Under the pieces are notes generated by a model, which did no database searches, was not told the DNA's origin, and saw nothing but the letters and a program-made list of their open reading frames with translations. From a virus: a stretch of 33,482 bases of DNA. How positions within the stretch are numbered: position 1 is the first letter of the stretch; each line of letters starts with the position of its first letter. The DNA lies in IMG/VR virus record IMGVR_UViG_3300017917_001401, positions 1 through 33,482 of that record. The stretch is one strand, 5' to 3'. Positions 14,007 to 31,183 of the stretch are shown one piece after another. The position numbers and the translations under genes were made by a program.

Positions 14007-14462
14007 ATGAATTGGTATGATCGAGTTTCAAAAGATATTTCAAATATCCCAGATGCAGTGGCCTATTATGAAGCCGAGCTGTTAGCGGCAAAACAAGATG
14101 TCCGCATAGCGGGTAACATTGAGAAAGCCTCAGCGCAAATGCCTGGCATTGTTGAAAATCGATTTAACCAACTTCAAGAAATTGAAGGTATTTTAGAATA
14201 CCTAAACATCGAACTTCGTAGACTTCGCAGTCAACATTTTCGTAAGTATCTTGAAAACTATCAACGCAGCTTGTCCTCTAGAGACTGTGAAAAGTTTGTA
14301 GAGGGCGAAGCTGACGTTGTAGACTTTGAAAAAATTATCAATGACTTTGCTTTATTACGCAACAAGTGGTTAGGTATTATCAAAGCATTAGATATTAAAC
14401 AATGGCAAGTTTCAAATATTGTTAAACTAAGAACTGCCGGGCTAGAAGATGCTAGTCTATGA
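14007..14462 (+). CDS. uvsY: UvsY-like recombination mediator
   Basis: Loads UvsX on gp32-coated DNA. 151 residues (T4 UvsY: 137). The whole protein looks helical and charged, as UvsY is. The C-terminal stretch with NKWLGIIKALDIKQWQVSNI then VKLRTAG corresponds in spacing to the T4 UvsY end (YWGILLDF, then IKHIQDMRAFEAG). Position just after uvsX supports the call. The start follows the previous stop directly, with a GAGGA ribosome site. The stop overlaps the first glycan-island gene by 4 bases (ATGA), so the island is fused into the uvsX-uvsY operon. Confidence 0.82.
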   Translation: MNWYDRVSKDISNIPDAVAYYEAELLAAKQDVRIAGNIEKASAQMPGIVENRFNQLQEIEGILEYLNIELRRLRSQHFRKYLENYQRSLSSRDCEKFVEGEADVVDFEKIINDFALLRNKWLGIIKALDIKQWQVSNIVKLRTAGLEDASL

Positions 14463-15220
14463 TTCCAGTTATAGGATTTTCTAGAGCTTCGGCATTTGTC
14501 ACAGGTGCTGGCGGTCGAGTTACCTCTATAGAAGAAACCTTTAGCAATACTAGTATTCCTGTAGCTTGGTCGGGTGTAGGGTATGCCGCCCTTTACCATT
14601 CATTATTAGAAAAAAAATTAGATTATTATTATATCGACACCGGTTATCTTGGCAATGTAAAAACCAAAGATTTTAAACGTATTACCAAAAACGGATTAAA
14701 TGATTTTCAACCGTTAAAAGATCGACCCAATGACCGATTGTCTAAATTAAGGATAGATTCAACTCCTTATAATCGCGGAAATAAAATTTTAATAATTCCG
14801 CCAGATCAAAAAGTACTAAATTGTTTTAGCCCCAATACATCTGCATTATATTGGATAGATAATACCATTCAACAATTAAAATTACATACTGATAGGGAAA
14901 TTGTTGTTCGAGAACGAAACCGTAGTAGACAAGAAAGAGTAACTACAGACAAATTTACAGATGCACTACAGAACGATATACACGCAGTATTAGTTTGGTC
15001 TAGTAATTGTGCAGTTGAGTCAGTGTTACATAATATTCCCGTAATTAACGCAGGGCCAACGGCTACTACACAAGTTAGTCCATATTCAATAGAGCAAGCT
15101 GATAGTGTTCCTAACTTAGACAAAGATTTAGTTGAAAAGTGGAAACGACATCTAAGCTATTGTCAATTTACCGTTGACGAAATGCTATCCGGACTAGCCT
15201 GGGAAATTATTAACCAATAA
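14459..15220 (+). CDS. Capsule-synthesis/GT-B-like family, member A
   Basis: 253 residues. One of seven divergent paralogues in this window. Family blocks: YYYIDTGYLGN (56-66), KRITKNGLNDF (73-83), a Pro-x-Asp-Arg turn (90-93), GNKILIIPP (107-115), LHTDREIVVRER (142-153), SSNCAVES then NIPV (181-194) and a C-terminal block YCQFTVDEMLSGLAWEI (234-250). The S-x(5)-E-S followed by I-P pattern resembles the nucleotide-sugar end of GT-B glycosyltransferases and of capsule proteins KpsS/KpsC; this is a distant resemblance, not a proven homology. It is probably a cytoplasmic glycosyltransferase. Its start overlaps uvsY. Confidence 0.6.
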   Translation: MIPVIGFSRASAFVTGAGGRVTSIEETFSNTSIPVAWSGVGYAALYHSLLEKKLDYYYIDTGYLGNVKTKDFKRITKNGLNDFQPLKDRPNDRLSKLRIDSTPYNRGNKILIIPPDQKVLNCFSPNTSALYWIDNTIQQLKLHTDREIVVRERNRSRQERVTTDKFTDALQNDIHAVLVWSSNCAVESVLHNIPVINAGPTATTQVSPYSIEQADSVPNLDKDLVEKWKRHLSYCQFTVDEMLSGLAWEIINQ

Positions 15221-15228
15221 TATACTCA

Positions 15229-15236
15229 TATAAATA
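15229..15236 (+). promoter_or_regulatory. Late promoter, perfect TATAAATA
   Basis: An exact T4 late promoter octamer, ending 5 bases before the ATG at 15242 and placed in a 21-base gap inside an otherwise overlapping gene string. No ribosome site is present. It would let the downstream glycan genes be expressed late as well as from the uvsX operon. Confidence 0.8.
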
Positions 15237-15241
15237 CCAGT

Positions 15242-16003
15242 ATGAAAAAAATTGTTTTAATTACTGGTGGGTTTGATCCATTGCATAGCGGACATATTGC
15301 TTATTTTCAAGCTGCTAAAAAATTAGGCGATATCCTTGTTGTGGGAGTTAACTCAGATGCGTGGCTTACACGCAAAAAAGGTGCGCCGTTTATGCCGTAT
15401 ACTGAACGTGCAACTATTGTACGCAATATTATAGGCGTGGATTTTGTTATAGACTTTAATGACTCCGACGGCTCAGCTAAACACGCTATTCAAATGGTTA
15501 GACAAAGCTATCCCCAAGATCAAATTATCTTTGCCAACGGCGGAGACAGAACACACGTTAATATTCCAGAAATGGATATAGAGGATAATAATCTACAATT
15601 TGTATTTGGCGTTGGCGGATTTAATAAAGCCAATTCTAGTTCGTGGATTCTTCAAGAATGGAAAGCACCTAAAACTATTCGTCAGTGGGGATACTATCGT
15701 GTATTACACGATGTTCCGGGAATGAAGGTTAAAGAACTTACCGTTGATCCTGGAAAAAGTCTGTCAATGCAACGCCATCACCTTCGTGCCGAATACTGGA
15801 TGGTTAGCGAAGGATCAGCAGTAGTTAATAGTCAAATGGATAGCGGATATACGATGCCGCCTATTACATTAGAAAAACATCAAGAATATCGAGTACCTGT
15901 CGCCGACTGGCATCAGTTAACTAACCCGTTTAACGTGCCAGTTAAAGTTGTAGAAATACAATACGGACAGCAGTGTATTGAAGAGGACATAGAAAGAAAA
16001 TGA
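15242..16003 (+). CDS. Nucleotidyltransferase-cupin fusion (RfaE2-like plus ManC-type isomerase domain)
   Basis: 253 residues in two domains. Residues 1-135 are a cytidylyl/adenylyltransferase like the HldE/RfaE2 C-terminal domain: GGFDPLHSGH (10-19) is the nucleotide-binding H-x-G-H motif, then GDILVVGVNSD and the PYTERATIV signature. Residues about 140-250 are a cupin like the C-terminal isomerase domain of ManC or type II mannose-6-phosphate isomerase: GYYRVLHDVPGMKVKELTV, the metal-ligand region QRHHLRAEYWMVSEG and the second ligand DWHQLTNP. The likely role is sugar-phosphate isomerisation and activation to an NDP-sugar; the exact sugar cannot be read. Stop and next start overlap (ATGA). 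Confidence 0.85.
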   Translation: MKKIVLITGGFDPLHSGHIAYFQAAKKLGDILVVGVNSDAWLTRKKGAPFMPYTERATIVRNIIGVDFVIDFNDSDGSAKHAIQMVRQSYPQDQIIFANGGDRTHVNIPEMDIEDNNLQFVFGVGGFNKANSSSWILQEWKAPKTIRQWGYYRVLHDVPGMKVKELTVDPGKSLSMQRHHLRAEYWMVSEGSAVVNSQMDSGYTMPPITLEKHQEYRVPVADWHQLTNPFNVPVKVVEIQYGQQCIEEDIERK

Positions 16004-16677
16004 TTCCAATTTTTATCGGCTACGATCACAGAGAAGCCATAGCATATCACGTGTGTGCAAATAGTATTATTCGTCACTCGACTAAACCCGTAGCAATTAC
16101 TCCACTAGCATTAAAAAATATGCAGGACTATGAAGAAAAACATACCGATGGTAGTAATCAGTTTATCTACAGTCGATTCCTTGTACCGCATTTAATGGAC
16201 TATAAAGGATGGGCAATCTTTATGGATGGGGATATGTTACTTCGTGACGATATTAATAAGTTATGGGCACTACGTGACGAATCAAAAGCTGTAATGGTTG
16301 TTAAACACGATTATCAAACTAAGATGACTGAAAAATATCTTGGTGCTAAAAATGAAAATTATCCAAGGAAGAATTGGTCTAGTGTAATTCTTTGGAATTG
16401 CGGACACGAAGCAAATAAGGGTGTGACTCCAGAATTTATTCAACAGGCAACAGGTGCACAGGTTCACAGATTTACCTGGTTAGATGATAGTTTAATTGGT
16501 GAGTTACCTAAAGTATGGAATTGGCTTCCGGACGAGTTTGGTGCAAATGATGAAGCAAAATTACTGCACTATACTCTAGGCACGCCAAGTTTCCACGACT
16601 TTGCAACTACTCCTATGGGCGATGAATGGCATCGTGAACGTATCTATACCGACTATTGCCTACAAAGAAATCTATGA
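16000..16677 (+). CDS. GT-A-fold glycosyltransferase
   Basis: 225 residues. Starts with a GT-A nucleotide-binding strand (IPIFIGYDHREAIAYHVC), has the metal-binding D-x-D motif as DGD (76-78) in WAIFMDGDMLL, and an acceptor-side region WSSVILWNCGH (about 125-135). LLHYTLG near residue 190 has the His expected to complete the metal site in GT8-like enzymes. Transfers a sugar from an NDP donor; donor and acceptor are unknown. Similar stand-alone enzymes occur in marine myoviruses and in LPS loci. It overlaps both neighbours by 4 bases. Cytoplasmic, with no membrane segment. Confidence 0.8.
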   Translation: MIPIFIGYDHREAIAYHVCANSIIRHSTKPVAITPLALKNMQDYEEKHTDGSNQFIYSRFLVPHLMDYKGWAIFMDGDMLLRDDINKLWALRDESKAVMVVKHDYQTKMTEKYLGAKNENYPRKNWSSVILWNCGHEANKGVTPEFIQQATGAQVHRFTWLDDSLIGELPKVWNWLPDEFGANDEAKLLHYTLGTPSFHDFATTPMGDEWHRERIYTDYCLQRNL

Positions 16678-17471
16678 TCTTTCTTAGTAAAGATAACCAA
16701 GATGAATACATCAATATGTTTGCACAGGGGTGCGGCAATATCCCTATCTCCACCGACAACTTTGACTACGACTCGTCGACTGATCCAATTGTTCTAAGAG
16801 GAATTCTTAAACACAAAATAATGAAACGGTGTTGGGAAGATAGGCGAACATTTTATTATATGGATACTGGTTATTTTGGTAATGAAAGAACATCGTCTAA
16901 TCCCAACGGATGGAAATATTGGCATCGGATTGTAAAAAATGATTTACAACACGGAGAAATTGTTAAACGACCCGATGATCGTTTTAAACAATTTAACAAA
17001 AAATTTAATCCTTGGAAAAAAGACGGTAGGTCTATATTAGTTGCTGCGCCCGACGAAAAACCTTGTAAATTCTATGGAGTCGACAAAGATCAATGGGTTA
17101 ATGACACAGTTAACACTATTCAAAAATATACAGATCGCCCAGTTATAGTTAGAGAGCGTGCTCCAAAAAGAATAGATCGAATAGTCACAGACACATTACA
17201 ACAGGCGCTGGACAACGATGTATTTGCACTAGTTACATTCAACAGTGTTGCAGCCATCGAAAGTATTTTTCACGGAATACCAGCATTTACTCTTGCGCCG
17301 GCAAATGCAGCTAGTCCAGTCGCACTGCAAGACTTAAGTCAAATAGAAACTCCGTATTATGCAGATGCGGATAAATTATATGCTTGGGGCTGTCATTTAG
17401 CCTATGGACAATTTCATATTAGTGAATTAAGAACTGGAAAAGCAAAAGAATTATTGGAAACATTATGGTAG
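16674..17471 (+). CDS. Capsule-synthesis/GT-B-like family, member B
   Basis: 265 residues from the ATG at 16674, chosen because it overlaps the upstream TGA as ATGA like its neighbours; an in-frame TTG at 16656 is less likely. Family blocks: FYYMDTGYFGN (60-70), HRIVKNDLQHG (84-94), PDDR (100-103), YTDRPVIVRER (152-162), NSVAAIES then GIPAF (190-205), and a C-terminal AYGQFHISELRTGKA. Closest in the window to the next gene, with near-identical DNA in two blocks, so the pair arose by tandem duplication. Probable cytoplasmic glycosyltransferase with unknown donor. Confidence 0.6.
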   Translation: MIFLSKDNQDEYINMFAQGCGNIPISTDNFDYDSSTDPIVLRGILKHKIMKRCWEDRRTFYYMDTGYFGNERTSSNPNGWKYWHRIVKNDLQHGEIVKRPDDRFKQFNKKFNPWKKDGRSILVAAPDEKPCKFYGVDKDQWVNDTVNTIQKYTDRPVIVRERAPKRIDRIVTDTLQQALDNDVFALVTFNSVAAIESIFHGIPAFTLAPANAASPVALQDLSQIETPYYADADKLYAWGCHLAYGQFHISELRTGKAKELLETLW

Positions 17472-18250
17472 AAAATGACCCAGCTAGTTACGAAGAAGCA
17501 TTTGTAAGAGGATCGCAAGAAGCAGTTACTCTTAGCAGAGAAGATGTTTCTAAGCCTGTTATTTTTAGAGGCATTACTAAACGTAAGCACATAAATCGTG
17601 CTAAAGAAATCAATAGAGATTTTTATTATATGGATACCGGTTACTTTGGAAATTTTCCAAGTGTTGGTAACCCAAGCGGTAAGAAAAATTGGCATCGTGT
17701 TGTAAAAAACGATTTACAACACACAACAAGTATAGATGTGCCTTCGGATCGTTGGGATCAGTTAGTAGCTAGCGATCCGCGATTAAAATGGACTGGATGG
17801 AAAACTAAAGGCAACAAAATTTTATTAGTACTACCTAATCCAAAGTCCTGCCACTTTTTTAATTTTGAATTAGATCAGTGGAAAAATCAAACTATTCAAA
17901 CTATTCAAAAATATACAAAGATGCCTATTGTAATTAGAACAAAAGGTTCACGATCTGATCGAAATCAAAATTCTATTTACGATGCATTAGATGATAATAT
18001 TTTTGCTACTGTAACATTCAATAGCATTGCTGCAATGGAATCTATTGCTTATGGTATTCCTGCTTTTGTAACTGTGCCTTGTGCCGCCTGGCCGTTAGCA
18101 AATACCGATTTAACTAAAATTCAAACTCCTGTTTATCCAGACGAATCCCTGGTTCAAAAACATTGTCGCACGTTAGCCTACGGACAATTTAGTTACACAG
18201 AAATACTCGACGGAACTGCGTGGAACATTATTCAAAGATATTATAAATGA
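17465..18250 (+). CDS. Capsule-synthesis/GT-B-like family, member C
   Basis: 261 residues. Family blocks: FYYMDTGYFGN (53-63), HRVVKNDLQHT (77-87), PSDR (93-96), KYTKMPIVIR (149-158), NSIAAMES then GIPAF (186-201), and AYGQFSYTEILDGTAW near the end. It also has TDLTKIQTPVYPDE, which matches the D-L-x-x-I-x-x-P-x-x-P-D segment of members E, F and G. Close relative of member B just upstream. The ATG overlaps the stop of member B by 7 bases, and the TGA overlaps the ATG of member D (ATGA). Function inferred only from the family pattern. Confidence 0.6.
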   Translation: MVENDPASYEEAFVRGSQEAVTLSREDVSKPVIFRGITKRKHINRAKEINRDFYYMDTGYFGNFPSVGNPSGKKNWHRVVKNDLQHTTSIDVPSDRWDQLVASDPRLKWTGWKTKGNKILLVLPNPKSCHFFNFELDQWKNQTIQTIQKYTKMPIVIRTKGSRSDRNQNSIYDALDDNIFATVTFNSIAAMESIAYGIPAFVTVPCAAWPLANTDLTKIQTPVYPDESLVQKHCRTLAYGQFSYTEILDGTAWNIIQRYYK

Positions 18251-19341
18251 AATTATTAATTAACGATAAAGAAATTGCACATTTTTTAGTAAGTCAATTA
18301 AGTATTGATCAATATGTAAAAGAAATTCCAATGTGCGAAACTAGAACAACAGAAGTAGCCGGTTGGATATTAGAAAAAGTAAATCGTGAAGGTTTAAAAA
18401 AATTAGATAAGTGGCGTAAAAAAGCAAAAGATAAAATACGCAAGGGTGTTGAAAACGATCTAAGAGAATATGTCAATCAAGTTAAGCAAGAAATTGCAAA
18501 TAGACAACAAAAAAACATTATCCTTGTTCATAAGAATTTAGAATATTTTGTTAATAAATTTGGCAGTGATCAAATCTTAAAAGCGTATAAAGCTAGTAAT
18601 AAACAAAACTTTGTAAAAAGTGTTGGTCAGCACATTACAGAAAAAAATGTAATGATACGCAGAAAGGATTACATAGATTATCAAGAAAATGCACTAATAC
18701 GCAATACTGTTGGTAATGAGCAAATTCTAATTGACAAAATTGACAATAGTTTGCCGTTTTGGTTTATAGATAGCGGATATACAAATTTTTTAGAACCAAA
18801 TAAAAAATGGCACAGATTAGTGTCAAATCATTTACATCACGGAAAAGTATTTGATGCCCCAGCCGATCGACTAACAGCATTTCCTGTGTTTCCTCGTCCT
18901 TGGAGATCAACAGGTGACAAGATTTTAATTATTGAACCTGGCCCATTTGCTGCAGGAATTTTTCACGTTGATATTAAAACTTGGAAATATAATGTTGAGG
19001 CTGAATTGAGAAAGTATACCGATAAGCCCATAGTTTTTAGAGAAAAAACAAATAAAAAAATTAGAACAAGTCTTTATCAACATTTATGTGACGAAGATTA
19101 TTATTGTACAATTAGTATTAATTCTAATTCTGCTACCGAATCTATTTGGGCAGGAGTTCCAGCAATTACTTTAGATCGACATATATCAAATTTGGTAACA
19201 AGAAATAAATTAAGTGATGTAAATAACCTGTGCCGAGACAATCTCGGGCATTGGTTAACAATGTTAAGTTATAGTCAATTTACATATGACGAGCTGTTAA
19301 ACGGAACAGCAGTTAAAATTATAAAAAAATATTATGTCTAA
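18247..19341 (+). CDS. Capsule-synthesis/GT-B-like family, member D, with N-terminal helical extension
   Basis: 364 residues, the longest of the seven. Residues 1-130 are an extra, Lys-rich, mostly helical region (GLKKLDKWRKKAKDKIRKG at about 49-67) without a counterpart in the others. The family part begins near 135: FWFIDSGYTNF (171-181), HRLVSNHLHHG, P-x-D-R, GDKILIIEPGP, KYTDKPIVFRE, NSNSATES then AGVPAI, and SYSQFTYDELLNGTA at the end. The extension could contact nucleic acid, membrane lipid heads or a partner protein; nothing in it decides this. It overlaps members C and E by 4 and 8 bases. Confidence 0.58.
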   Translation: MKLLINDKEIAHFLVSQLSIDQYVKEIPMCETRTTEVAGWILEKVNREGLKKLDKWRKKAKDKIRKGVENDLREYVNQVKQEIANRQQKNIILVHKNLEYFVNKFGSDQILKAYKASNKQNFVKSVGQHITEKNVMIRRKDYIDYQENALIRNTVGNEQILIDKIDNSLPFWFIDSGYTNFLEPNKKWHRLVSNHLHHGKVFDAPADRLTAFPVFPRPWRSTGDKILIIEPGPFAAGIFHVDIKTWKYNVEAELRKYTDKPIVFREKTNKKIRTSLYQHLCDEDYYCTISINSNSATESIWAGVPAITLDRHISNLVTRNKLSDVNNLCRDNLGHWLTMLSYSQFTYDELLNGTAVKIIKKYYV

Positions 19342-20257
19342 ATTAACAGCAATTGTATACTATAGCGGCATTCCTCCGTCTAATAATAATCCAGAAAAGC
19401 CATTGATTCTTGATAATTTTTATCAGGGAGTTATTGCAGCAGGAGACACAGCTATTGCTCAACGAGCATTATCTGCAATACCCGGCGATGTTGCATTTAT
19501 ACAAGGCTTTGTACACGATAACGGAAAAAATTTACCACATCTTCAATTACGAAAAGCAGCAATAGATTTACAAAAGAAGAACGGAGGTAGGTCTTTAATC
19601 TGCGATAGCAATTTATTTCTATATGCAGATCCTGGAAATACAAAAAGATACCTACGTTATAGTTTTGATGGTGTTTTTCCAACAACCGGGTTTTACTTTG
19701 ACACAGAACCTGATCCAAGTCGATGGACAAAGATTAGCAAAAATTTAGGAATAACGTTAAAACCTTATAGAGAAACAGGATCTCATATCCTCTTGTGCCT
19801 ACAACGAAACGGTGGCTGGAGTATGAGAGGATTATCAGTTATGGATTGGCTTAATCACACCATTAACGAGATTAGAAAATACAGTTCGCGGCACATCGTT
19901 GTTAGGGCTCACCCCGGTGATCGAAAAGTTAGTTCATACTTAAGAATAAATCATCCTAATACCTCATTAAGCAAAAATAAAAATTTAACCGACGACTTTA
20001 AAAATGCGTGGGCGACAGTTGTATACAATAGCTCACCTAGTGTAGCAAGTGCAATAGAAGGAATACCTGTATTTTTAACAGATCCTCATCCAGAATATAG
20101 TCAAAGTTTGCCAATAGCAAACACCGACCTAGCAAAAATTGAAAGTCCTGTGATGCCAGACAGACAGCAGTGGATTGAAAAACTGTCTATGTGTCATTGG
20201 AACTTTGACGAACTTAAATCAGGAGAAGCCTGGAGCTTTTTTAGAAAATATATATGA
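19334..20257 (+). CDS. Capsule-synthesis/GT-B-like family, member E
   Basis: 307 residues. More divergent: the D-x-G-Y block is weak, but IRKYSSRHIVVRAHPGDRK (180-198) carries the His-Pro of capsule/Kdo-transferase-like GT-B enzymes, followed by YNSSPSVASAIEGIPVF (231-247) and the C-terminal TDLAKIESPVMPDRQQW and NFDELKSGEAW blocks shared with member F. About 120 N-terminal residues look like the partner half of a two-domain GT-B enzyme (TAIVYYSGIPP, then a Rossmann-like pattern). Starts with an 8-base overlap and ends in an ATGA overlap with the methyltransferase gene. Confidence 0.58.
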   Translation: MSKLTAIVYYSGIPPSNNNPEKPLILDNFYQGVIAAGDTAIAQRALSAIPGDVAFIQGFVHDNGKNLPHLQLRKAAIDLQKKNGGRSLICDSNLFLYADPGNTKRYLRYSFDGVFPTTGFYFDTEPDPSRWTKISKNLGITLKPYRETGSHILLCLQRNGGWSMRGLSVMDWLNHTINEIRKYSSRHIVVRAHPGDRKVSSYLRINHPNTSLSKNKNLTDDFKNAWATVVYNSSPSVASAIEGIPVFLTDPHPEYSQSLPIANTDLAKIESPVMPDRQQWIEKLSMCHWNFDELKSGEAWSFFRKYI

Positions 20258-20961
20258 AAAAATTAAAAAATGGGTGGCATATGCCCGACGACGAAATTAA
20301 AATGACATCACATATCGAAGCTGATGTTTCAATGTCTAATCCAAGTTACGAGGAAAGACATCGACTTGCTATTTTAAAAAATATTCCTCAAAAAAACACG
20401 TTTGTTGACGTAGGAGCAAATGTAGGTGTGTGGTCTATGGCACTATCTACACAATTTAACAAGGTAATTTCATTTGAACCGAGTGTTAGAAACAGAGAAT
20501 GTTTAGAAGCTAACCTTGGGAAGGTTGTGGAAATTCGTCCATACGCAGTAGGCAACGCTTCAGGAAAAGTAAATTTTAGAGATGCTGTAAAAAACTGCGG
20601 AGATAGTAAAATTTCTTTAGAAAAGCGTGATCATATGTACGAGGTTGAAATTGTAAAACTCGATGATCAAAATATTACCAACTGTTCACTAATAAAAATT
20701 GATGTTCAAGGATTTGAACTGCCCGTTGTAGAAGGTGCCTTAAGAATTATTAAAGAGCAACAGCCTTGGATCATTTTTGAAATCAACGAAGACGTTGATG
20801 TTATTTGTAATATTTTAGAAAAACAAAATTATGAAATGATTAGGAACAAATCTAAACGTGTTATGATTTGGGCTCCAACTTCTGGTAAAATGAAACCATT
20901 AAATTCTGATGCCTTCGGTAGACATCTTGGGCCAGGACCTTATGTTCGTTGGGTCCAGTAA
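20254..20961 (+). CDS. FkbM-family methyltransferase
   Basis: 235 residues. SAM-binding motif I VDVGANVGVWS (51-61), motif II Glu75 in SFEPSVRN, and the FkbM signature IKIDVQGFELPVVEGA (about 148-163) followed by PWIIFEINE. FkbM enzymes O-methylate sugars and polyketides; in LPS and capsule loci they usually methylate a glycan hydroxyl. It ends the first plus-strand glycan string and overlaps by 22 bases, tail to tail, the minus-strand glycosyltransferase. No separate promoter is seen; the start overlaps member E by 4 bases. Confidence 0.86.
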   Translation: MKKLKNGWHMPDDEIKMTSHIEADVSMSNPSYEERHRLAILKNIPQKNTFVDVGANVGVWSMALSTQFNKVISFEPSVRNRECLEANLGKVVEIRPYAVGNASGKVNFRDAVKNCGDSKISLEKRDHMYEVEIVKLDDQNITNCSLIKIDVQGFELPVVEGALRIIKEQQPWIIFEINEDVDVICNILEKQNYEMIRNKSKRVMIWAPTSGKMKPLNSDAFGRHLGPGPYVRWVQ

Positions 20962-21782
20962 GCTTCTGTTCGTTGCACTTTAAGATCTTCTCTTTTACTA
21001 CGTCCAGCAGTCTTACGATCGCCTTTTAAATGATCTAGATACGCACCCCAATCACTGTTAATCAATGGATGACCTTCTCCTGTGGAGTTTCCTGGTCTAG
21101 GTCTAAGGTCTGCTAAATGTGCAGCCCAATCTAATTGATTTAAATCTGTGAATTTCTTTCTTACTTCGTCAAATACAAAACTATCGTGCCATTCTGCCAT
21201 TAAAAAAATTCCATTTTCTGCATCATCGTACACACGTTGAAATTCTTTTAAAAAGTTTTTAGTTTTATCTGAATTTAAATTCATTGCATAAAGCCCGCAT
21301 TCACTATATTTTCCTCTACGTCCTAGATAACATAGATCTTTTTCGCTAGGACATAATTTTATAAGATGTTCGGTGCTGATTGGACTGTGACAAATGGTAT
21401 CAGCATCCATCCACAGTAACATATCAGCGCCGCTGACTTTAGCACAGTCAAAAATTGAATAAACTTTATGAGCAAATCGAATGGCGTGCCACTTAAAACC
21501 TTTGCCAGCATCTTTTCTTCGACTACGTACAGGATCAGCACTAACATCGCCGTTGGCTTTAGGCACATTTTTCCACTTTTCTTTGAATTTAACTAACTCT
21601 GGGCTAGATTGGTGTAAATCCTTAACAATTAAATTTGGAGCTGTTTCAGTTACAACACAATCTTCAGCGTAGACATATAATTTAATGTCACTTGGCCAAT
21701 TTTTTAGAAACGTTTCGATCATACGTTTACCATATGTATCGTATCCTGCTTTATGAAAGGTAGTTACAACTGCAAAATTCAT
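20940..21782 (-). CDS. GT-A glycosyltransferase (minus strand)
   Basis: 280 residues from the ATG at 21782, which shares its A with the stop of the upstream minus-strand gene (TAATG); the ATG at 21797 lies inside that gene and is less likely. N-terminus MNFAVVTTFHKAGYDTYGK resembles the 32182 gene (MKIGIVSTFSKTGYEEYGK). The D-x-D motif is DAD (126-128) in LLWMDADT. Later GRRGKYSECGLYAMNL and DHLKGDRKTAGRSKRE also match that paralogue. Extra sequence of about 20 residues around VSADPVRSRRKDAGKGF is not in the paralogue. Transfers a sugar from an NDP donor; acceptor unknown. Confidence 0.8.
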   Translation of the reverse strand: MNFAVVTTFHKAGYDTYGKRMIETFLKNWPSDIKLYVYAEDCVVTETAPNLIVKDLHQSSPELVKFKEKWKNVPKANGDVSADPVRSRRKDAGKGFKWHAIRFAHKVYSIFDCAKVSGADMLLWMDADTICHSPISTEHLIKLCPSEKDLCYLGRRGKYSECGLYAMNLNSDKTKNFLKEFQRVYDDAENGIFLMAEWHDSFVFDEVRKKFTDLNQLDWAAHLADLRPRPGNSTGEGHPLINSDWGAYLDHLKGDRKTAGRSKREDLKVQRTEAYWTQRT

Positions 21783-22192: not shown

Positions 22193-22198
22193 CTCTGA

Positions 22199-23061: not shown

Positions 23062-23067
23062 TTATAA

Positions 23068-24258
23068 ATGTTATCATCAGTTTATGTCGAAGACATTTTC
23101 CTTGACTTTTATAGTCATTTTTTAAATACCAATTTACCTGTACAACCACAGGATTTTTCTCCCATTAGTAGCTTTGCTAATAAACTAATAGACAACGAAC
23201 AACTAACCCAGAACCAAGCAAATTATGTGGTTAAGATTTTAGACAAATATAAAACTATTTCAGCAAATTCGGGTTTAGATTATCGGCAGGCACTAACTAA
23301 TATTCAATGGCGAACTTCATTTAGAGTTCTTGACCTAAGTAAAAAAATCTATGTTGAAAAAACAGACCAAGGCAAGGTTTGGGTTTGTTTAAAATTTCCT
23401 TATCAGCTAAAAAAAGAGTTTGAAACCGAAATAGATTCTGGGTACGTTGGCACTGAACGTGCATCGTCTTGGGACAGTGAAGCAAAAGTTCGCCGTTTGG
23501 CGTTATACGAGTATAATCTAATATCACTCTACGAGTTTGCACATAAACATAATTTTGAAATTGATGATTCATTTTTAGTGGCGCTTGCCGAGGTTGAAGA
23601 AATTTGGCAAAATTCTGAAAAAATTGCTCCTTTCTCAACAGCACTAGGCAATGTTGTTGCATTAGGTAACGCCAGCGAGGAAGTACAGGCATTTTGGGAT
23701 ACTAAGGCCATAGGAACCTATGAAAATAATTTACTACTGGCTAAGAGTATGGGTTTTGTTCTAAAAGAAATTCCTAAAACACCTATTGAAAAAATTGCTG
23801 CATCATATGAAAATTCATTTTGGGTGAAGAATAATGCAGATTTGTTTTCTTTATATAAAAACATCAATGGCAGAGTATGTGTCATATTAGATAGGACCGG
23901 AAATACCTTGCAATGGTTACAAAGATTTGTAGCAGATGCAGATCAAGCAGGGGTTAGCCGCGACGATATTAAAGTTTGCTTTAGAGACAGCAAAGAAAAC
24001 AACAGTGGCATTAACGAATGGATTAAAATGGCAGGCGTAGGTGGCAAAGTAGAGACTGGCAAAATTTTAATTTTTGAATATAAGCCTGCAAAGTGGTTGT
24101 TTAAAGATGTTGAAGATGTTAAAATGTTAGTAACAAATAACTTATATCCGCCAACTAACGGCATTACAAAAGATTGGTTTAGCAGCCATCCTTGTGTAAT
24201 ATATTTAGGAGATATTAAGCCATCAGAACAAAGAGGACAGAAAATTGTCGAGCTGTAA
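23068..24258 (+). CDS. Conserved-looking phage protein upstream of uvsW, function unknown
   Basis: 396 residues, no membrane segment and no catalytic motif that I recognise. The N-terminal 120 residues are helical, followed by a beta-rich segment around RTSFRVLDLSKKIYVEK and WVCLKFPYQLKKEFE. The C-terminal third looks alpha/beta (GRVCVILDRTGNTLQWLQRF, DDIKVCFRDSKENNSG, HPCVIYLGDIKPSEQ), like a helicase-type or Rossmann half-domain without Walker motifs. I recall a similar gene directly before uvsW in marine T4-like phages, suggesting a role in recombination or fork processing. The ATG coincides with the predicted transcription start. It overlaps uvsW by 14 bases. Confidence 0.68.
   Translation: MLSSVYVEDIFLDFYSHFLNTNLPVQPQDFSPISSFANKLIDNEQLTQNQANYVVKILDKYKTISANSGLDYRQALTNIQWRTSFRVLDLSKKIYVEKTDQGKVWVCLKFPYQLKKEFETEIDSGYVGTERASSWDSEAKVRRLALYEYNLISLYEFAHKHNFEIDDSFLVALAEVEEIWQNSEKIAPFSTALGNVVALGNASEEVQAFWDTKAIGTYENNLLLAKSMGFVLKEIPKTPIEKIAASYENSFWVKNNADLFSLYKNINGRVCVILDRTGNTLQWLQRFVADADQAGVSRDDIKVCFRDSKENNSGINEWIKMAGVGGKVETGKILIFEYKPAKWLFKDVEDVKMLVTNNLYPPTNGITKDWFSSHPCVIYLGDIKPSEQRGQKIVEL
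24231..24237 (+). promoter_or_regulatory. Ribosome site fixing the UvsW TTG start
   Basis: AAGAGGA lies 7 bases before TTG at 24245, inside the 3' end of the upstream gene. It is the best ribosome site near the start of the UvsW domain and makes the TTG the likely initiation codon. Confidence 0.7.
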
Positions 24259-25702
24259 ACTTACAATTAAAGACGAAGTAAACATTAAAGTTGAAGGACT
24301 TAGTGTTGAAACACGTCGTAAAATTGTTAACAAATTAAAATTTGATTTACCATATGCACGCCATATGCCAGCTTATAAATTAGGCAGATGGGACGGTACT
24401 AAAACATATTTTGGTATTGGGGGCAACGGATATCTTGCACATTTAGATGTGATATTGCCTATCATTGAAGATGCAGGTTATGAAATTGAAGTTGAGGATT
24501 TACGTCAACATCAAGAATTTAAATTTGCTCCAGTAACAGAAAACTATTGGGCCGACCAAGGTAAAACTTGGCCTAAAGGACATCCTAATGCCGGGGATCC
24601 TATTATACTTCGTGACTATCAATACGATGTTATTAATAAGTTTTTAGAAAATCCACAGAGTCTGCAAGAAGTGGCGACTGGTGCTGGTAAAACTATTACT
24701 ACAGCAACACTATCATCGTTATGCGAACCGTATGGTCGCACAATGGTCATTGTTCCTAACAAGTCGTTAGTTGTGCAAACAGAAGAAGACTACATCAACT
24801 TAGGCTTAGATGTTGGTGTGTACTTTGGTGATAGAAAAGAATTAAATCGCACACATACTATTTGTACCTGGCAAAGTCTTAACGTATTAGATAAGAAAAG
24901 TTACGATGACGACGAAGCACTAACTCTTGCAGAATTTACAGAAGGTGTTAATGCTATTATTATTGACGAAGTCCATCAGGCCAAAGCAGAAGTGTTGACT
25001 AAACTGTTAACACAAAATTTTAGAAACTGTGCAATTCGCTGGGGACTAACAGGAACTGTACCTAAAGAAGCTTGGGAATTTCAAGGCATTCTAGCATCAA
25101 TAGGTCCTGTGATTAATCAAGTGTCTGCTAACGATTTACAAAACAAAGGTGTCCTTGCACAACTTGATATTCAAGTTCTACAAACTACAGATGTGCAGGT
25201 ATTCCGTAGTTATCAAGATGAATATAGTTTTTTAGTAACAGATCCTACTCGACTTACCTGGATTGCTAATAAGATCAAAGAAGTAAGTTTAACAGGAAAT
25301 ACTCTTGTGCTAATCAATAGAATTGACACAGGAAACAAATTAAATGAACTTATACCAGATGCTGTGTTTGTCAGCGGTGGAATGAAATTAGACGACAGGA
25401 AAGAAGAGTATGACGAAATTAAAACTAGTGATGGCAAGATCATTGTGGCGACTTACGGTGTGGCCGCTGTGGGTATTAATATTCCAAGGATTTTTAATTT
25501 GGTTCTTATTGAACCCGGAAAGAGCTTTGTCCGCGTTATACAAAGCATTGGACGAGGCATTAGAAAAGCGGAAGACAAAGACTTTGTACAAATTTGGGAT
25601 ATCACGAGCACCTGTAAGTATGCGAAACGGCATCTCACGGAAAGGAAGAAATACTATAAAGAGGCGAAATACCCCTTTACAATAACCAAGGTAAACATAT
25701 GA
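24245..25702 (+). CDS. uvsW: UvsW, SF2 DNA/RNA helicase
   Basis: Unwinds R-loops and branched DNA and drives the switch to recombination-dependent replication. 485 residues (T4: 503). Walker A ATGAGKT (144-150), DEVH box (241-244), motif III-like WGLTGT (about 267-272) and motif VI QSIGRGIRKAED near 435. The N-terminal 110 residues hold the UvsW-type DNA-contact domain (LPYARHMPAYKLGRWDGTK). The start is TTG, supported by AAGAGGA (24231-24237) seven bases upstream; no ATG occurs before the conserved domain. The stop overlaps the next ATG (ATGA). Confidence 0.94.
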   Translation: MSSCKLTIKDEVNIKVEGLSVETRRKIVNKLKFDLPYARHMPAYKLGRWDGTKTYFGIGGNGYLAHLDVILPIIEDAGYEIEVEDLRQHQEFKFAPVTENYWADQGKTWPKGHPNAGDPIILRDYQYDVINKFLENPQSLQEVATGAGKTITTATLSSLCEPYGRTMVIVPNKSLVVQTEEDYINLGLDVGVYFGDRKELNRTHTICTWQSLNVLDKKSYDDDEALTLAEFTEGVNAIIIDEVHQAKAEVLTKLLTQNFRNCAIRWGLTGTVPKEAWEFQGILASIGPVINQVSANDLQNKGVLAQLDIQVLQTTDVQVFRSYQDEYSFLVTDPTRLTWIANKIKEVSLTGNTLVLINRIDTGNKLNELIPDAVFVSGGMKLDDRKEEYDEIKTSDGKIIVATYGVAAVGINIPRIFNLVLIEPGKSFVRVIQSIGRGIRKAEDKDFVQIWDITSTCKYAKRHLTERKKYYKEAKYPFTITKVNI

Positions 25703-26205: not shown

Positions 26206-26447
26206 TGGGATATAGTTATACCGGGTACTTTGAAAATTATGATCCGTTTTGGGAAAGGTCTACTTGGGAATATAAATTTGCAATATGGCCACACAGATGC
26301 GAGATAAGTAAAAGAATATTATGGTTTGAATGTGCTTATAAGGGCACTAGAGTGATAACCGGTCCGGGCGAACCAGTATTTGAATTTCGATGGCTATCAA
26401 AGAACGAATACTTGTTAGCAGCATTAAAAGGATTAATAAAAAAGTAA
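26205..26447 (+). CDS. Small Trp-rich hypothetical protein
   Basis: 80 residues from the ATG at 26205, which shares a base with the upstream TGA (TGATG); a GTG at 26202 is the alternative. Rich in Trp, Tyr and Phe: GYFENYDPFWERSTWEYKF, WPHRCEISKRILWFECAY, EFRWLSKNEYLLAALKG. Small aromatic proteins with a W-P-x-R-C segment and a W-x-x-x-E-Y end are common in phages; the function is unknown. It ends the uvsW-associated genes. The acyltransferase gene starts one base later, so the second glycan island continues the same transcript. Confidence 0.62.
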   Translation: MGYSYTGYFENYDPFWERSTWEYKFAIWPHRCEISKRILWFECAYKGTRVITGPGEPVFEFRWLSKNEYLLAALKGLIKK

Positions 26448-26448
26448 G

Positions 26449-26868
26449 ATGAAAACTAATATTAAAGAAGGCAACAGAGTAAAAATTATAGAACCGGTAA
26501 ATTTATACGGTTGCGAATTAAACGACGATGTGTTTGTTGGGCCGTTTGTTGAAATACAAAGCAACGTTGTAATTGGTGAAAGAACTAGAATACAGAGTCA
26601 TTCTTTTATCTGCTCTAATGTACAAATTGGTCAAGACTGTTTTATCGGACACGGGGTTATGTTTACCAATGATAAATTTATAGACAGAAAACTTTCAAAA
26701 GATTTTTTACCTACTAAACTAGGAAACAAGGTTTACGTAGGATCTAATTCTACAATTCTTCCTGTATCAATATGTGATGATGTAGTAATTGGTGCAGGAG
26801 CAGTTGTTACAAAAGATATTGTAGAACCCGGAACGTATATTGGAAATCCAGCTAAAAAATTAAAATAA
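26449..26868 (+). CDS. Left-handed beta-helix acyltransferase (WbpD/WlbB-like)
   Basis: 139 residues, made almost wholly of hexapeptide repeats: CELNDDVFVGPFVEIQSN, VVIGERTRIQSHSFIC, VQIGQDCFIGHGVMF, NKVYVGSNSTILPV and VVIGAGAVVTKDI, ending in the usual YIGNPAKKLK. Such enzymes are trimers that N-acetylate amino-sugars on a nucleotide carrier. The size and the ending fit WbpD/WlbB and FdtC types. It directly precedes an oxidoreductase and an aminotransferase, the partners expected for a 3-acetamido sugar. No signal peptide, so cytoplasmic. Confidence 0.86.
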   Translation: MKTNIKEGNRVKIIEPVNLYGCELNDDVFVGPFVEIQSNVVIGERTRIQSHSFICSNVQIGQDCFIGHGVMFTNDKFIDRKLSKDFLPTKLGNKVYVGSNSTILPVSICDDVVIGAGAVVTKDIVEPGTYIGNPAKKLK

Positions 26869-26905
26869 TGAATGCTGGTATTTGAAAATCACAAGGAAAA
26901 TATTA

Positions 26906-27811
26906 ATGATATTATTAGTAGGTTATGGATATTGGGGTAAAAATTTAGCAAGAAATTTTAGCAAGGAATTGGTAGCAATTTGTGATGCCGATGATACAAA
27001 ACTATCAGCAGCAAAAAATCTTTATGCAAATGTAACAACATATACAAGTTTGGATTCTGCATTAGAACATCCAGGACTGACAGCAGTGGTGGTAGCAACA
27101 AAAGCAAATACTCATTTTGATATTGTTTCAAAATCTCTAAATCGAGGATATGACGTTTGGGTTGAGAAACCAATTTGCGAAAATCTTGAACAAATTAATC
27201 AACTAATTAAATTGTCCGAAGAAAAGAAAAAAATTATATTTGTAGATCATACATTTTGTTATAATCCAGCAGTGGAAAAATTAAAAACAATCGATGTTGG
27301 TCGTCCTATATATTATGATAGTACAAGGATTAGTTTAGGTCTTTTTCAAAATGACGTTGACGCATTGTTAGATTTAGCAATACACGATTTAAGTATCATA
27401 AATTATCTATATCCGGATCTTGTTCTTGATGAACGCACAATTATTAAAAATAATCATATCAACGACAAAGCCAATCAAGTGATTATTAATTTAAAATTTA
27501 CTAATAATTTTACAGCAACTATTAATTGTAATTGGGTGAGCCCGGTTAAAAAAAGACAGATTATTTTAACGGGTGATAAAAATAGTGTAGTCTACGACGA
27601 CATCGATCTCGACAAACTTAAAGTATATTCAACCGGAGAAATTAATCCGGACTTTAATGCAAATCAGCTAGGAGATATGATTGCACCAAAAATTGGAACT
27701 ACCGAAGCACTATACACAGGTAGAACACATTTTTTAGAATGTATTAAAACAAGACAGCAACCGTTAACAAGTATATACAGTGCTAAAAAAATAATGGAGT
27801 GGGTATTATGA
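26906..27811 (+). CDS. Gfo/Idh/MocA oxidoreductase (WbpB/WlbA-like)
   Basis: 301 residues from the ATG at 26906, which has AAGGA (26893-26897) 8 bases upstream; the in-frame TTG at 26882 has none and would add residues ahead of the nucleotide-binding strand. The Rossmann motif is VGYGYWGKN (5-13), the family motif WVEKPI with Glu87-Lys88-Pro89, and LDLAIHDLSIINYL carries the conserved His-Asp pair of the active site. WlbA-type members oxidise C3 of a UDP-sugar with NAD, which the following aminotransferase then uses. The stop overlaps the aminotransferase start (ATGA). Confidence 0.87.
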   Translation: MILLVGYGYWGKNLARNFSKELVAICDADDTKLSAAKNLYANVTTYTSLDSALEHPGLTAVVVATKANTHFDIVSKSLNRGYDVWVEKPICENLEQINQLIKLSEEKKKIIFVDHTFCYNPAVEKLKTIDVGRPIYYDSTRISLGLFQNDVDALLDLAIHDLSIINYLYPDLVLDERTIIKNNHINDKANQVIINLKFTNNFTATINCNWVSPVKKRQIILTGDKNSVVYDDIDLDKLKVYSTGEINPDFNANQLGDMIAPKIGTTEALYTGRTHFLECIKTRQQPLTSIYSAKKIMEWVL

Positions 27812-28851
27812 TACCGTTTTATAGTTTTAAAGAAATTCACAGTAGTATCGAGGATCAACTAATTGAACAGGCTTCGTCTGTTATTCGTAGCGGGAACTAT
27901 GTGTTTGGTACGAATAAATTTGAAGAAGAATTTGCAGAATACACCGGTGCAAAATATTGCGTAGCAGTATCAAATGGAACCGCAGCAATTCATCTAGCTT
28001 TATTGGCATTGGGCGTTGGTCCTGGCGACGAAGTAATTACAGTCAGCCATACATTTAGAGCTACAGTAGCCGCAATTAAATATTGTGGCGCTACTCCAAT
28101 ATTTGTTGACATTGATCCAGACACATTCACAATGGATTATACTCAAATTGAGTCAAAGATTACAAATAAGACTAAATGTATATTACCGGTTCACATTTAT
28201 GGTAATATGGCTCCTGTTCAAGAGATAGTTGCGATTGCGGCCAAACATAATATTCCAGTTGTAGAAGACTGTAGTCAAGCACACGGTACTACACTAAACA
28301 ATAAACACGTTGGTACATTTGGTAAAATTGGAACTTTTAGTTTTTATCCAGGTAAAGGACTAGGAGCACTAGGAGATGCAGGATGTGTTATAACTGACGA
28401 CGAACATCTAGCAAAACTTATGTCTAGAGTTAGACAGTGGGATGATAACGATGTTGGTTATAACTATAGAATGGCAAATATTCAAGCAGAATTTCTTAGA
28501 ATTAAATTAAAAACATTTAATCACGTATTAGAACAAAAACGATTAGTTGCAGAAGAATACAACAAGCATTTTAATTTTGTAAAGACAAAGCACGGGGTTA
28601 ATCACAGTTATCACGTTTATCCCATTTTAGCAAAATCAAGAGATCAACTAATCAATAATGTAAAACCAGAATTAGATTTAAAAAGTCATTATCCGTTGCC
28701 AGTACACAAGTTAACAGCATATAAAGAATCTTATTGGTTGCCGGTCACAGAAAAAATTGCAGCACACGAAGTGAGTTTACCAATATACCCTGGAGTTAAC
28801 TACCAACGAGTTATAGAGATATTAAATGATCATTCTAGCGCCATTCTTTAA
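27808..28851 (+). CDS. DegT/DnrJ/EryC1 sugar aminotransferase (WbpE-like)
   Basis: 347 residues from the ATG at 27808; it overlaps the upstream stop by 4 bases and a GTG at 27799 is unlikely. PLP-dependent. The cofactor lysine is Lys183 in SFYPGKGLGALGD; Asp154 and Gln157 in VEDCSQAHG face the pyridine ring; SNGTAAIHLA (55-64) binds the phosphate. All key residues are present, so this should be a true aminotransferase. With its two upstream neighbours it would make a UDP- or dTDP-3-acetamido-sugar. Its 3' end overlaps the next gene by 26 bases. Confidence 0.9.
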   Translation: MIPFYSFKEIHSSIEDQLIEQASSVIRSGNYVFGTNKFEEEFAEYTGAKYCVAVSNGTAAIHLALLALGVGPGDEVITVSHTFRATVAAIKYCGATPIFVDIDPDTFTMDYTQIESKITNKTKCILPVHIYGNMAPVQEIVAIAAKHNIPVVEDCSQAHGTTLNNKHVGTFGKIGTFSFYPGKGLGALGDAGCVITDDEHLAKLMSRVRQWDDNDVGYNYRMANIQAEFLRIKLKTFNHVLEQKRLVAEEYNKHFNFVKTKHGVNHSYHVYPILAKSRDQLINNVKPELDLKSHYPLPVHKLTAYKESYWLPVTEKIAAHEVSLPIYPGVNYQRVIEILNDHSSAIL

Positions 28852-29569
28852 AGATCTTCAGCCGTCAAAAGAAGGAACAGAACTTCTTGAAATGTCAAAG
28901 GTTTTTGATTATAAATTAAATTTAACTAGATTAGAGCATACGTTTATGATGGAAAACAGTCATCATAAATTTGAAGTTTGTTCCGACGAACAAACTAAAT
29001 TATCGACTAAAAATGTGTTTAGGTCTAAGTTAACAGATAAAAATATAATGGAGTCTTTTTGTATTTCTAATTTAGAATATGTTAAACTACGTAATGATAA
29101 AATTATTTTATGCGGTGCAGATCATTTAATTAACGGCAAATTAGATAAATTGTTTGACGACGATTTTGATATCGGGTTGGCCATAGCAAAAAAACCTTTA
29201 CGAGTTAATAACACAATTGTGTTGGTTAATAATAAAAATAAAGAGCTAGTTGTTAAATTTTTTGAGAGACGATTGGCTGAATACTATGCGTTACCTGAAG
29301 CTGAAAAACTATGGTATGGCGATCAATTGAGTTATCAGCGAATAATAGAAAAAGAAGGCATTTTTGATTCTTCATTATCAAACCCGCCTATTGGAATTTT
29401 TGAAGCCTGCGGATTAAAAATTAAATTGTTTCCGTACGGAAGTGAGTATGTATCGCCCTTAAAGAAAAATCTATTTCCTGAACCCTCAATGCCAGTTATT
29501 ATAGATTTTAAAGGTCCAAAAAGAAAACTGCGAACAACAGAAGTTTACAATAATCTAATATCAAAATGA
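28826..29569 (+). CDS. Probable GT-A-like glycosyltransferase
   Basis: 247 residues. The order of elements follows the two other GT-A enzymes here: an N-terminal strand (MIILAPFFKDL), a central motif KIILCGADHLINGKLDKLFD (about 92-111) where the Ala-Asp-His replaces the D-x-D, and a C-terminal IDFKGPKRKLRTTE resembling the HFKGDR end of the 32182 gene and the HLKGDR end of the 20940 gene. The D-x-D is not standard, so metal use or activity is less certain. Starts within the aminotransferase 3' end and overlaps the epimerase by 4 bases. Confidence 0.6.
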   Translation: MIILAPFFKDLQPSKEGTELLEMSKVFDYKLNLTRLEHTFMMENSHHKFEVCSDEQTKLSTKNVFRSKLTDKNIMESFCISNLEYVKLRNDKIILCGADHLINGKLDKLFDDDFDIGLAIAKKPLRVNNTIVLVNNKNKELVVKFFERRLAEYYALPEAEKLWYGDQLSYQRIIEKEGIFDSSLSNPPIGIFEACGLKIKLFPYGSEYVSPLKKNLFPEPSMPVIIDFKGPKRKLRTTEVYNNLISK

Positions 29570-30402
29570 TTAAAATTTTAATAACAGGAAATTCAGGATA
29601 CATTGGCTCGCATCTTAGTAAAATATTAAATCAAAGATCGGATTTAAATCTTCACGGGTTAGATAAACAAATACCAACTGTACAGTTAAAAAAACAATTT
29701 GCTCAAGATATTTCTTTAGATACTAACTGGATAATTGATCAGGAGTACGATTGTGTAATACACTTGGCCGCCGAGGTTGCTGTAGGAAGAAGTGTATATA
29801 ATCCCACGCTGTACTATCTAACTAATACGCTTGGAACTCTGAATGTATTAAAAAAAATTAAAACAAAAAACTTTATTTTTGCATCGACTGGATCAGCAGC
29901 TGGTCTTGCAAGCCCGTACGGAATTTCAAAACGTATGGCTGAAGATATTGTAAAACAATACTGTACAAGTCACAGTATTCCGTTTACAATTTTTAGATTT
30001 TATAATGTTGTTGGTAGTGACGGAATCCCGCCAACAAATCCGGACGGTCTTTTTTATAATTTAATTCAGGCTAAACAAACTGGTGTTTTTAAATTATTTG
30101 GAACAGATTATAACACCAGAGACGGTTCTTGCGAGCGAGACTATACACACGTTAACGAAATATGTAGAGCTATTGAGAAATGCATTACTACTAGTACTGG
30201 TCAAATAGAAAATTTAGGTCACGGTAAAGGTACAACAGTTAAAGAAATGATTTCTATTTTTAAAACTGTTAACAACTGTGATTTTACAGTTATAGATGAA
30301 CCTAGGCGAGCTGGCGATTTAGAAAGGAGTGTTTTAGATAATCCTTCTAAATTTATGCAACAACTTTATTCAATAGAAGAAGTGTTAAAAATTACGGATT
30401 AA
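29566..30402 (+). CDS. NAD-dependent sugar epimerase/dehydratase (GalE-like SDR)
   Basis: 278 residues, somewhat short for GalE (about 330). NAD motif GNSGYIGSH (8-16), HLAAEVAVGRS (66-76), catalytic Ser/Thr in FASTGS (105-110) and Tyr118-x-x-x-Lys122 in PYGISK. RDYTHVNEICRAIEKC (about 205-220) is the usual GalE substrate-side segment. Acts on a UDP-sugar, most likely as a 4-epimerase, though a dehydratase of the same family is possible. The 11-base tail overlap with the minus-strand gene suggests a join between two inserted pieces. Confidence 0.85.
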   Translation: MIKILITGNSGYIGSHLSKILNQRSDLNLHGLDKQIPTVQLKKQFAQDISLDTNWIIDQEYDCVIHLAAEVAVGRSVYNPTLYYLTNTLGTLNVLKKIKTKNFIFASTGSAAGLASPYGISKRMAEDIVKQYCTSHSIPFTIFRFYNVVGSDGIPPTNPDGLFYNLIQAKQTGVFKLFGTDYNTRDGSCERDYTHVNEICRAIEKCITTSTGQIENLGHGKGTTVKEMISIFKTVNNCDFTVIDEPRRAGDLERSVLDNPSKFMQQLYSIEEVLKITD

Positions 30403-31183
30403 TTTGATACTGTTCGATCATTTCGATCACTTTAGTGCTATTTTTAAACTCATCGGGATAAAACTGACTCCAAGAAATATGTTCCAACCAAGCAGTTCTG
30501 TCCGGATATGTTGGATTAGAAATAGCCGACAAGTCAGTTCCCATTAATAGACTTACCATAGAAAAATCAGTAGTATATGCAGGGTATCCCATCATCACGG
30601 CTTCAACACAGGCCATTGTTCGTTCACCAACTACTGCGTGACAACCTTTAAGGTCTTCTAGATAACTAGGCCATCTTCCAGGATTTTTTCCGCTACGTTT
30701 GCTTCTCCATTTAATTGGACCATTCCAGTGCGGGCTTAGTTTTTCTAAAAGTTCGTCCCTCCACTGTATAAATGTAATACCGCGCCTTTCTTCGATTATT
30801 GCAGGAAGAGGCTCGATGACTAAGAGATAGTCTCCCCTAGTTGTTTTCCAATTTTCTATTTTAGGTGTTAGAGTATGTAATCTAGAAAATGGAGGTTTTT
30901 TCATTGTTAGATTATGATGACCATTATATGTTATTCGCCTGGATTCGCGTCGTCGTTCACCGTCACCCCAGTATCCAAATTCAATTTCAATATATTTGTT
31001 GCCTTTCGCTATCCATTCTTTAAACGGACTACGCCAGGGCGGATAGTGACAAGATATTAATATATGATCGTCTGGGACTTGGCTTACTTTATCAAAAGTG
31101 GGTGTTCCTATTTTCAACCAAGGTTCAAGATATTGTGTACCTTTGATTTCAATTAATTCTTTACAAATCGCATATTTTTTCAT
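30392..31183 (-). CDS. Capsule-synthesis/GT-B-like family, member G (minus strand)
   Basis: 263 residues from the ATG at 31183, 5 bases after a late promoter; the GTG at 31186 lies in the spacer. Family blocks: KYIEIEFGYWGDG (63-75), RRITYNGHHNL, a W-x(5)-G-D-Y-L-L-V-I-E-P block, GERTMACVEAVMMGYPAY (S-x-x-x-E-A/G-x-P type), TDLSAISNPTYPDRTAWLEH and SQFYPDEFKNST near the end. It matches members A-F best in the last 70 residues. Separated from them by the whole uvsW unit and on the opposite strand, it ties the two islands together. Confidence 0.58.
   Translation of the reverse strand: MKKYAICKELIEIKGTQYLEPWLKIGTPTFDKVSQVPDDHILISCHYPPWRSPFKEWIAKGNKYIEIEFGYWGDGERRRESRRITYNGHHNLTMKKPPFSRLHTLTPKIENWKTTRGDYLLVIEPLPAIIEERRGITFIQWRDELLEKLSPHWNGPIKWRSKRSGKNPGRWPSYLEDLKGCHAVVGERTMACVEAVMMGYPAYTTDFSMVSLLMGTDLSAISNPTYPDRTAWLEHISWSQFYPDEFKNSTKVIEMIEQYQINP

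Follow-up and report, generated by a model that had tools for sequence, protein, structure and literature searches.

The known enzymes closest to the genes considered here are the retaining 3-deoxy-D-manno-oct-2-ulosonic acid (Kdo) transferases, among them KpsC (glycosyltransferase family GT107), WbbB (GT99) and KrkA (GT140). These enzymes use a covalent double-displacement mechanism that has been described as so far unique among glycosyltransferases (PMC9587256, PMC12887879), in which an Asp within a QXXXD motif serves as nucleophile, a (K/R)XHP motif holds cytidine monophosphate (CMP) and a Glu acts as base (PMC10148158, PMC9587256, PMC12887879). The Glu and the Asp correspond to Glu66 and Asp160 in E. 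coli KpsC (PMC10148158), the base of KrkA is a Glu from a different element (PMC12887879), and the evolutionary origin of the retaining Kdo transferases has been described as unclear (PMC10148158). Multiple glycosyltransferases have also been reported from T4-like and large aquatic phages, as in the host-recognition cluster of pelagimyophages (PMC7029224) and in an aquatic phage lineage with four core glycosyltransferase groups (PMC12619734); the available parts of these accounts center on GT8 and O-chain genes or on orthologue groups without names, rather than on GT-B paralogues with active-site changes. Here we analyze seven paralogous genes (A to G) in the IMG/VR virus record IMGVR_UViG_3300017917_001401, the whole 33,482 bases of which constitute the window, a fragment of a T4-like phage. 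In the explanation that we favor as a whole, with confidence somewhat above even, these genes encode GT-B glycosyltransferases that share ancestry with the Capsule_synth (KpsC/KpsS) transferases, lack their nucleophile and belong to a soluble, phage-borne glycan-assembly island. The seven genes are as follows.

14459-15220, plus strand: paralogue A, predicted GT-B family member without the His-Pro (HP) motif and without the nucleophile.
16674-17471, plus strand: paralogue B; an alternative upstream TTG start at 16656 is possible.
17465-18250, plus strand: paralogue C; AlphaFold2 predicted local distance difference test (pLDDT) 94.5, Foldseek matches to KpsC, KrkA and WbbB.
18247-19341, plus strand: paralogue D, with an N-terminal extension of about 120 residues.
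19334-20257, plus strand: paralogue E, with RxHP present and Gly replacing the QXXXD nucleophile; AlphaFold2 pLDDT 95.7.
22214-23032, plus strand: paralogue F, with RPHP present and Glu at the acidic column.
30392-31186, minus strand: paralogue G; 8 viral contigs encode relatives 59-63% identical to it.

All seven genes named in the original prediction are real open reading frames (ORFs) and form one homologous family. They encode proteins of 253-307 residues (364 in D), and in the B-C-D-E run neighboring genes overlap by a few bases. An all-versus-all BLASTP comparison linked every pair of the seven, with B-C (45% identity) and E-F (36%) as the closest pairs and C-F as the weakest link (6e-5 in the seven-sequence database). 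Leave-one-out hidden Markov models (HMMs) recovered each copy (E-values of 5e-47 for A, 4e-62 for B, 9e-61 for C, 3e-48 for D, 5e-35 for E, 2e-28 for F and 4e-22 for G), and matched neither another window protein nor any of 1400 composition-matched shuffles (200 per member); the similarity is therefore far above chance, and these profiles revealed no eighth copy in the window. Besides Met1, all seven share the same residue at Gly66, Arg85, Arg103, Leu122, Trp141, Arg160, Pro203 and Glu251 (B numbering). The ordered series of motif blocks originally said to run through all copies does reflect a real family, but the blocks are less uniform than claimed: E and F lack both the N-x-L-x-H block and the Glu of NS-x-x-A-x-E-S, K-Y-[TS] is missing from A and G, and G presents ERTMACVE. 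The additional N-terminal residues of D (18247-18600) contain no recognizable domain, and D orthologues are of similar length.

The alignment of the seven members contained no stretch conserved enough for a contig scan, and single members and the alignment of a sister group, designated Q, were therefore used as queries. A scan of viral contigs with E identified 79 loci at 47-81% identity. Iterated profile searches covering these loci, the window and four annotated phage regions recovered 359 family members, so that the survey of copy number in related phages originally called for returned usually four to six copies per contig; 11 contigs searched as whole records carried three to six copies each. 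The second scan, with the Q alignment as query, confirmed at least 588 related viral stretches. In the inferred tree, the clades comprise 6 (A), 60 (B), 51 (C), 59 (D) and 67 (F) proteins, and no locus occurs twice in any clade. The E group comprises 80 proteins, at most one per locus, after removal by motif of the 26 Q proteins (26 of 106, an alignment-based count); Q does not form one clean clade in the tree, and the B node is poorly supported. Identity between copies is 20-45%, whereas orthologues of different phages mostly share 50-80%. Orthologues across phages are thus more alike than paralogues within one phage, which argues that the copies are ancient; judged from these sequence comparisons, the seven copies represent old, diverged orthologue clades.

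Few annotated phages carry homologues, which are mostly labelled as hypothetical proteins: Pelagibacter phage Mosig, with two family members, Caulobacter jumbo phages and one podovirus. In the podovirus (MW202713), the family member (L009:4792-5610) lies mostly in an unannotated stretch, and the annotated features skip to a pyridoxal-phosphate enzyme. The Caulobacter jumbo phage proteins (CcrColossus gp127 and gp128, C1 gp164) are homologous by tblastn and likewise present in several copies, but their neighborhood differs, the genes lying directly behind tail genes. Genome contigs were scanned for the family with one single pattern, and this thin search returned five loci and no cellular pathway of origin. 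One Neomarinimicrobiota locus lies near a phage tail gene, one contig of an alphaproteobacterial metagenome-assembled genome (MAG) also encodes a head-tail connector, and one Rhodoblastus locus shows no evident phage genes. The other two loci are near-identical T4-like phage stretches (L090 and L091) in two contigs of one Neomarinimicrobiota MAG (335 kb and 153 kb), an arrangement that suggests binned phage sequence. As judged by these searches, the family has so far been met almost only in phages and prophage-like regions.

The GT-B fold originally proposed was borne out for C and E. AlphaFold2 models computed with family alignments as input were confident for both proteins (predicted template modeling score of 0.91 in each), and Foldseek searches of the PDB with these models returned KpsC, WbbB and KrkA first, ahead of general GT-B enzymes (best E-values of 4e-6 for C and 2.9e-8 for E). 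Among predicted viral structures, E matched a CcrColossus protein and four proteins of Tetraselmis virus 1 at template modeling (TM) scores of 0.67-0.73, two of which are named as capsule polysaccharide biosynthesis proteins; the Tetraselmis virus 1 proteins are structurally alike and occur in several copies, but in a different gene neighborhood. Profile-profile comparison by hhalign to three Capsule_synth alignments, built from proteins taken from alphaproteobacterial genomes and counting the best target for each clade, ranked Q (96%) and F (95%) highest, followed by D (82%, with an alignment out of register over its first half), B (74%), E (48%), A (44%), C (24%) and G (17%), versus 0.1-1% for six unrelated window proteins; these are pairwise figures, not calibrated against a database. 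Matches to the corresponding library families were weak and below threshold in several members: PF05159 (Capsule_synth) reached at best 15.9 bits against a cut-off of 20, in singly scanned relatives rather than in window copies, and PF20471 (DUF6716) reached 15.5 bits against 27 in B. PDB sequence searches with E and with profiles produced chance matches only.

At the active site, the 26 Q proteins carry a complete catalytic set, consisting of QXXXDxS, RxHP and an invariant Glu, and the hhalign alignment of Q to a KpsC-like protein places QxxGD on QVFGD, HP on HP and the acid of the ES motif on the acid of EDG. In that KpsC-like target, EDG lies at 67, QVFGD starts at 160 and KQHP lies at 196, so that the first two are close to the positions of Glu66 and Asp160 in E. 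coli KpsC. The QXXXD nucleophile, present only in the 26 sister-group proteins, is missing in all seven window copies. E retains the Gln and RxHP with Gly in place of the Asp (QRNGG), F retains the Gln and RPHP with Ser in its place (QHRNS), and A, B, C, D and G have Pro instead of the Gln (in all but one protein) and no Asp. The HP motif, originally noted in E and F, is indeed confined to these two among the seven, its His being replaced by Lys or Arg in 177 of 177 tallied members of A-D and G. The acidic column, aligned to the general base of KpsC by profile alignment only, is acidic in all 350 tallied clade members, being Glu for Q, F and G but Asp for A-E. The first Arg of RxHP and the NS-block Ser show 99.7% conservation across the family, with Thr replacing this Ser in the window G protein. 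Invariant columns make up 21-25% within the B-E clades, which present clade-specific active-site signatures. The original assignment to capsule/Kdo-type enzymes hence holds as kinship, through Foldseek and, for some clades, profile-profile comparison, and with a (K/R)-anchored nucleotide site in common, but not as membership in the Kdo transferases (GT99/GT107/GT140), which is rejected because none of the seven has the nucleophile.

That the copies are glycosyltransferases we regard as very probable. With the nucleophile gone and the acid, the nucleotide-binding Arg and Ser (Thr in G) and the GT-B core kept, we infer that the covalent route is not used; the window copies would transfer sugars by single displacement or by another nucleophile-free route, in which the conserved Asp or Glu may act directly as the base. 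E and F, which keep RxHP, would probably still use a cytidine-nucleotide sugar donor, and the altered His site of A-D and G may reflect an altered donor, probably other activated sugars such as nucleoside diphosphate (NDP)-sugars.

These genes are embedded in a conserved gene neighborhood. The left end of the window is read, from position and sequence and without a database match, as contractile-tail genes, to the right of which lies a large terminase (best tblastn match to a Pseudomonas phage terminase, 53.6%), followed by a gp32-like gene and a RecA-type UvsX (Pfam RecA). The remaining features are as follows.

14007-14462: UvsY (phrog_231, 3e-16).
15242-16003, plus strand: HldE-like nucleotidyltransferase fused to a mannose-6-phosphate-isomerase-type cupin (Pfam CTP_transf_like 4.9e-13, MannoseP_isomer 5.2e-22).
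16000-16677, plus strand: GT8-type GT-A glycosyltransferase (Pfam Glyco_transf_8 1.3e-7), with an ATGA overlap with B.
20254-20961, plus strand: FkbM-type methyltransferase (Pfam Methyltransf_21 8.2e-15), directly after E.
20940-21797, minus strand: probable GT-A-like enzyme, by motif only (LLWMDADT, DxD-like).
21782-22186, minus strand: small conserved island protein, in 43 loci.
24245-25702: UvsW-like helicase.
26449-26868, plus strand: hexapeptide acyltransferase.
26882-27811, plus strand: GFO/IDH/MocA sugar dehydrogenase.
27799-28851, plus strand: DegT/DnrJ/EryC1 sugar aminotransferase (Pfam 5.7e-99).
29566-30402, plus strand: NAD-dependent sugar epimerase/dehydratase.

The nucleotidyltransferase-cupin protein, which also matches phrog_7878 (4.7e-28) and, below the curated cut-off, rfaE_dom_II (7.5e-21), probably makes an activated sugar. 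The GT-A-like gene has no Pfam, PHROG or PDB sequence match, so its assignment rests on the motif, and a second gene related to it lies at 32182-32907. From GT8 through FkbM, consecutive genes share a few bases, as expected of one operon; promoter and terminator scans gave no signal above shuffles. In relatives, the usual order is uvsX-uvsY-nucleotidyltransferase/cupin-GT8-B-C-D-E-(FkbM)-minus-strand pair-F-uvsW, with GT8 and B reordered in some. Among the 79 scan loci and the four annotated regions, the nucleotidyltransferase-cupin gene occurs in 66, GT8 in 71 and the minus-strand GT-A-like gene in 70. The proposed phage-owned, multi-enzyme sugar island is therefore present and conserved in many phages. 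The sugar genes to the right of uvsW (26449-30402) are variable and rare among related loci. A set of dehydrogenase, aminotransferase, acyltransferase and epimerase fits the synthesis of amino or acylamino sugars, and these genes look like a phage-borne amino-sugar pathway.

Additional variation was observed within the island. GT8 and the family member, which are separate neighboring genes in the window, reside in a single protein of about 570-584 residues in L072:8299-10050, as seen by a GT8 domain match, and probably also in L086:3039-4742, as indicated by length and tree position. In L011:8077-8847 and L024:12059-12832, the A-like gene is encoded on the minus strand next to the GT-A-like gene, whereas in the window A follows uvsY on the plus strand; since strand and neighbor differ, the A slot has moved. 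Between F and uvsW, a 396-residue protein (23068-24258) without Pfam or PHROG match diverges much faster (25-65% identity) than the adjoining uvsW.

Taken together with the GT8, GT-A-like, methyltransferase and sugar-nucleotide genes, the GT-B copies would make up a glycan-assembly island, soluble and cytoplasmic, with a separate donor or acceptor step for each orthologue. We consider it likely that the copies work in one multi-step pathway; single-copy clades with differing invariant active-site residues agree with the addition of one residue per copy, without proving it. The acceptor would most plausibly be a soluble protein of the virion, for example of the tail or fibers, since no membrane proteins are evident and homologues lie directly behind tail genes in Caulobacter jumbo phages and close to tail or connector genes in two bacterial contigs; this we put forward with low confidence, slightly short of an even chance. 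Still more tentative is a scenario in which a KpsC-like double-displacement ancestor radiated into copies that lost the covalent nucleophile, exchanged their nucleotide site and became single-displacement enzymes with different donors, jointly building an oligosaccharide on the virion that is specified by the phage.

Several observations weigh against this interpretation. TM-scores of C and E to KpsC, WbbB and KrkA are only 0.31-0.57, so that kinship is established at the superfamily level only, and the window copies further differ from these enzymes in their 10-15% identity and short length. The general base is assigned from alignment rather than superposed coordinates, sequence alone gives no clear link of C and G to Capsule_synth, no Pfam, NCBIfam or PHROG family scores meaningfully for the window copies and no family member has a known activity. 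In addition, the island lies in the recombination region of the window lineage rather than beside tail fibers, and no acceptor gene was identified.

The alternative that survives best, which we deem distinctly less probable than the explanation favored here, is that the island remodels a host surface glycan, be it lipopolysaccharide (LPS)/O-chain or capsule, and thereby blocks superinfecting phages. KpsC and WbbB act on capsule and LPS, the HldE-like nucleotidyltransferase suits ADP-heptose-type LPS sugars, and pelagimyophage glycosyltransferase clusters are interpreted in this way in the available part of their description (PMC7029224). Against this, the lipid-linked glycan starters PF02397 (Bac_transf) and PF00953 (Glycos_transf_4), and hence a polyprenyl-phosphate initiating transferase, were absent from seven related records, two of them complete, and no flippase or polymerase membrane protein is evident in the window island or in ten related islands. 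No KD19 hydropathy segment exceeds 1.6 in the uvsX-to-uvsW island proteins of the window, which by this measure encode no membrane flippase or transferase as in gtrABC-like O-antigen modification, and the ten related islands present only isolated peaks, in members C and F, a Q-type copy and one unassigned ORF. Enzymes acting at the cytoplasmic membrane face, as KpsC does, could nonetheless suffice.

It is unlikely that only some copies are active, with those lacking QXXXD or HP persisting as pseudoenzymes, for instance scaffolds or regulators. That A-D and G have lost both the catalytic Asp and the His would fit this, but the acid, the Arg and the Ser are kept in essentially all members across 50-80 divergent phages, and the invariant columns and clade-specific signatures of B-E also speak for function. 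We give even less credence to glycosylation of phage DNA through a hydroxymethylated base, which would yield a multi-sugar anti-restriction coat. The island does lie among gp32, uvsX, uvsY and uvsW, and virus-encoded glycosyltransferases reportedly hypermodify DNA with glycans (Pyle 2024, as cited in PMC12619734). No gene of the thymidylate-synthase family (PF00303), which includes dCMP hydroxymethylase, was found in the seven records, comprising the complete Mosig and CcrColossus genomes and, for the most part, fragments of 90-199 kb; a search for Tet/JBP (PF12851) gave no match, but neither did its controls. Finally, despite the tandem arrangement, recent redundant duplication maintained for dosage or by drift rather than for separate steps is extremely improbable, being disfavored by the tree, by the single-copy clades and by the lower identity between copies than between orthologues.

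Since phage glycosyltransferase islands are known in outline, the locus is not a new kind of system, and the original suggestion that no phage system of this form had been described is superseded in this respect by the available parts of the reports cited above (PMC7029224, PMC12619734); the paralogue family itself does appear to be new. As far as libraries and papers show, what is new is a large unclassified phage GT-B family, its ancient multi-paralogue layout and the graded way in which its clades have lost the Kdo-transferase catalytic set. Because members with and without the nucleophile occur next to each other in one island, the family provides a natural test of how the covalent double-displacement mechanism is gained or lost. 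The phage probably makes a custom decoration of several sugars, with its own particles or its host as the likeliest site, and the island points to a widespread, unannotated glycan pathway in aquatic T4-like phages, the product of which could affect host range, superinfection or virion stability.

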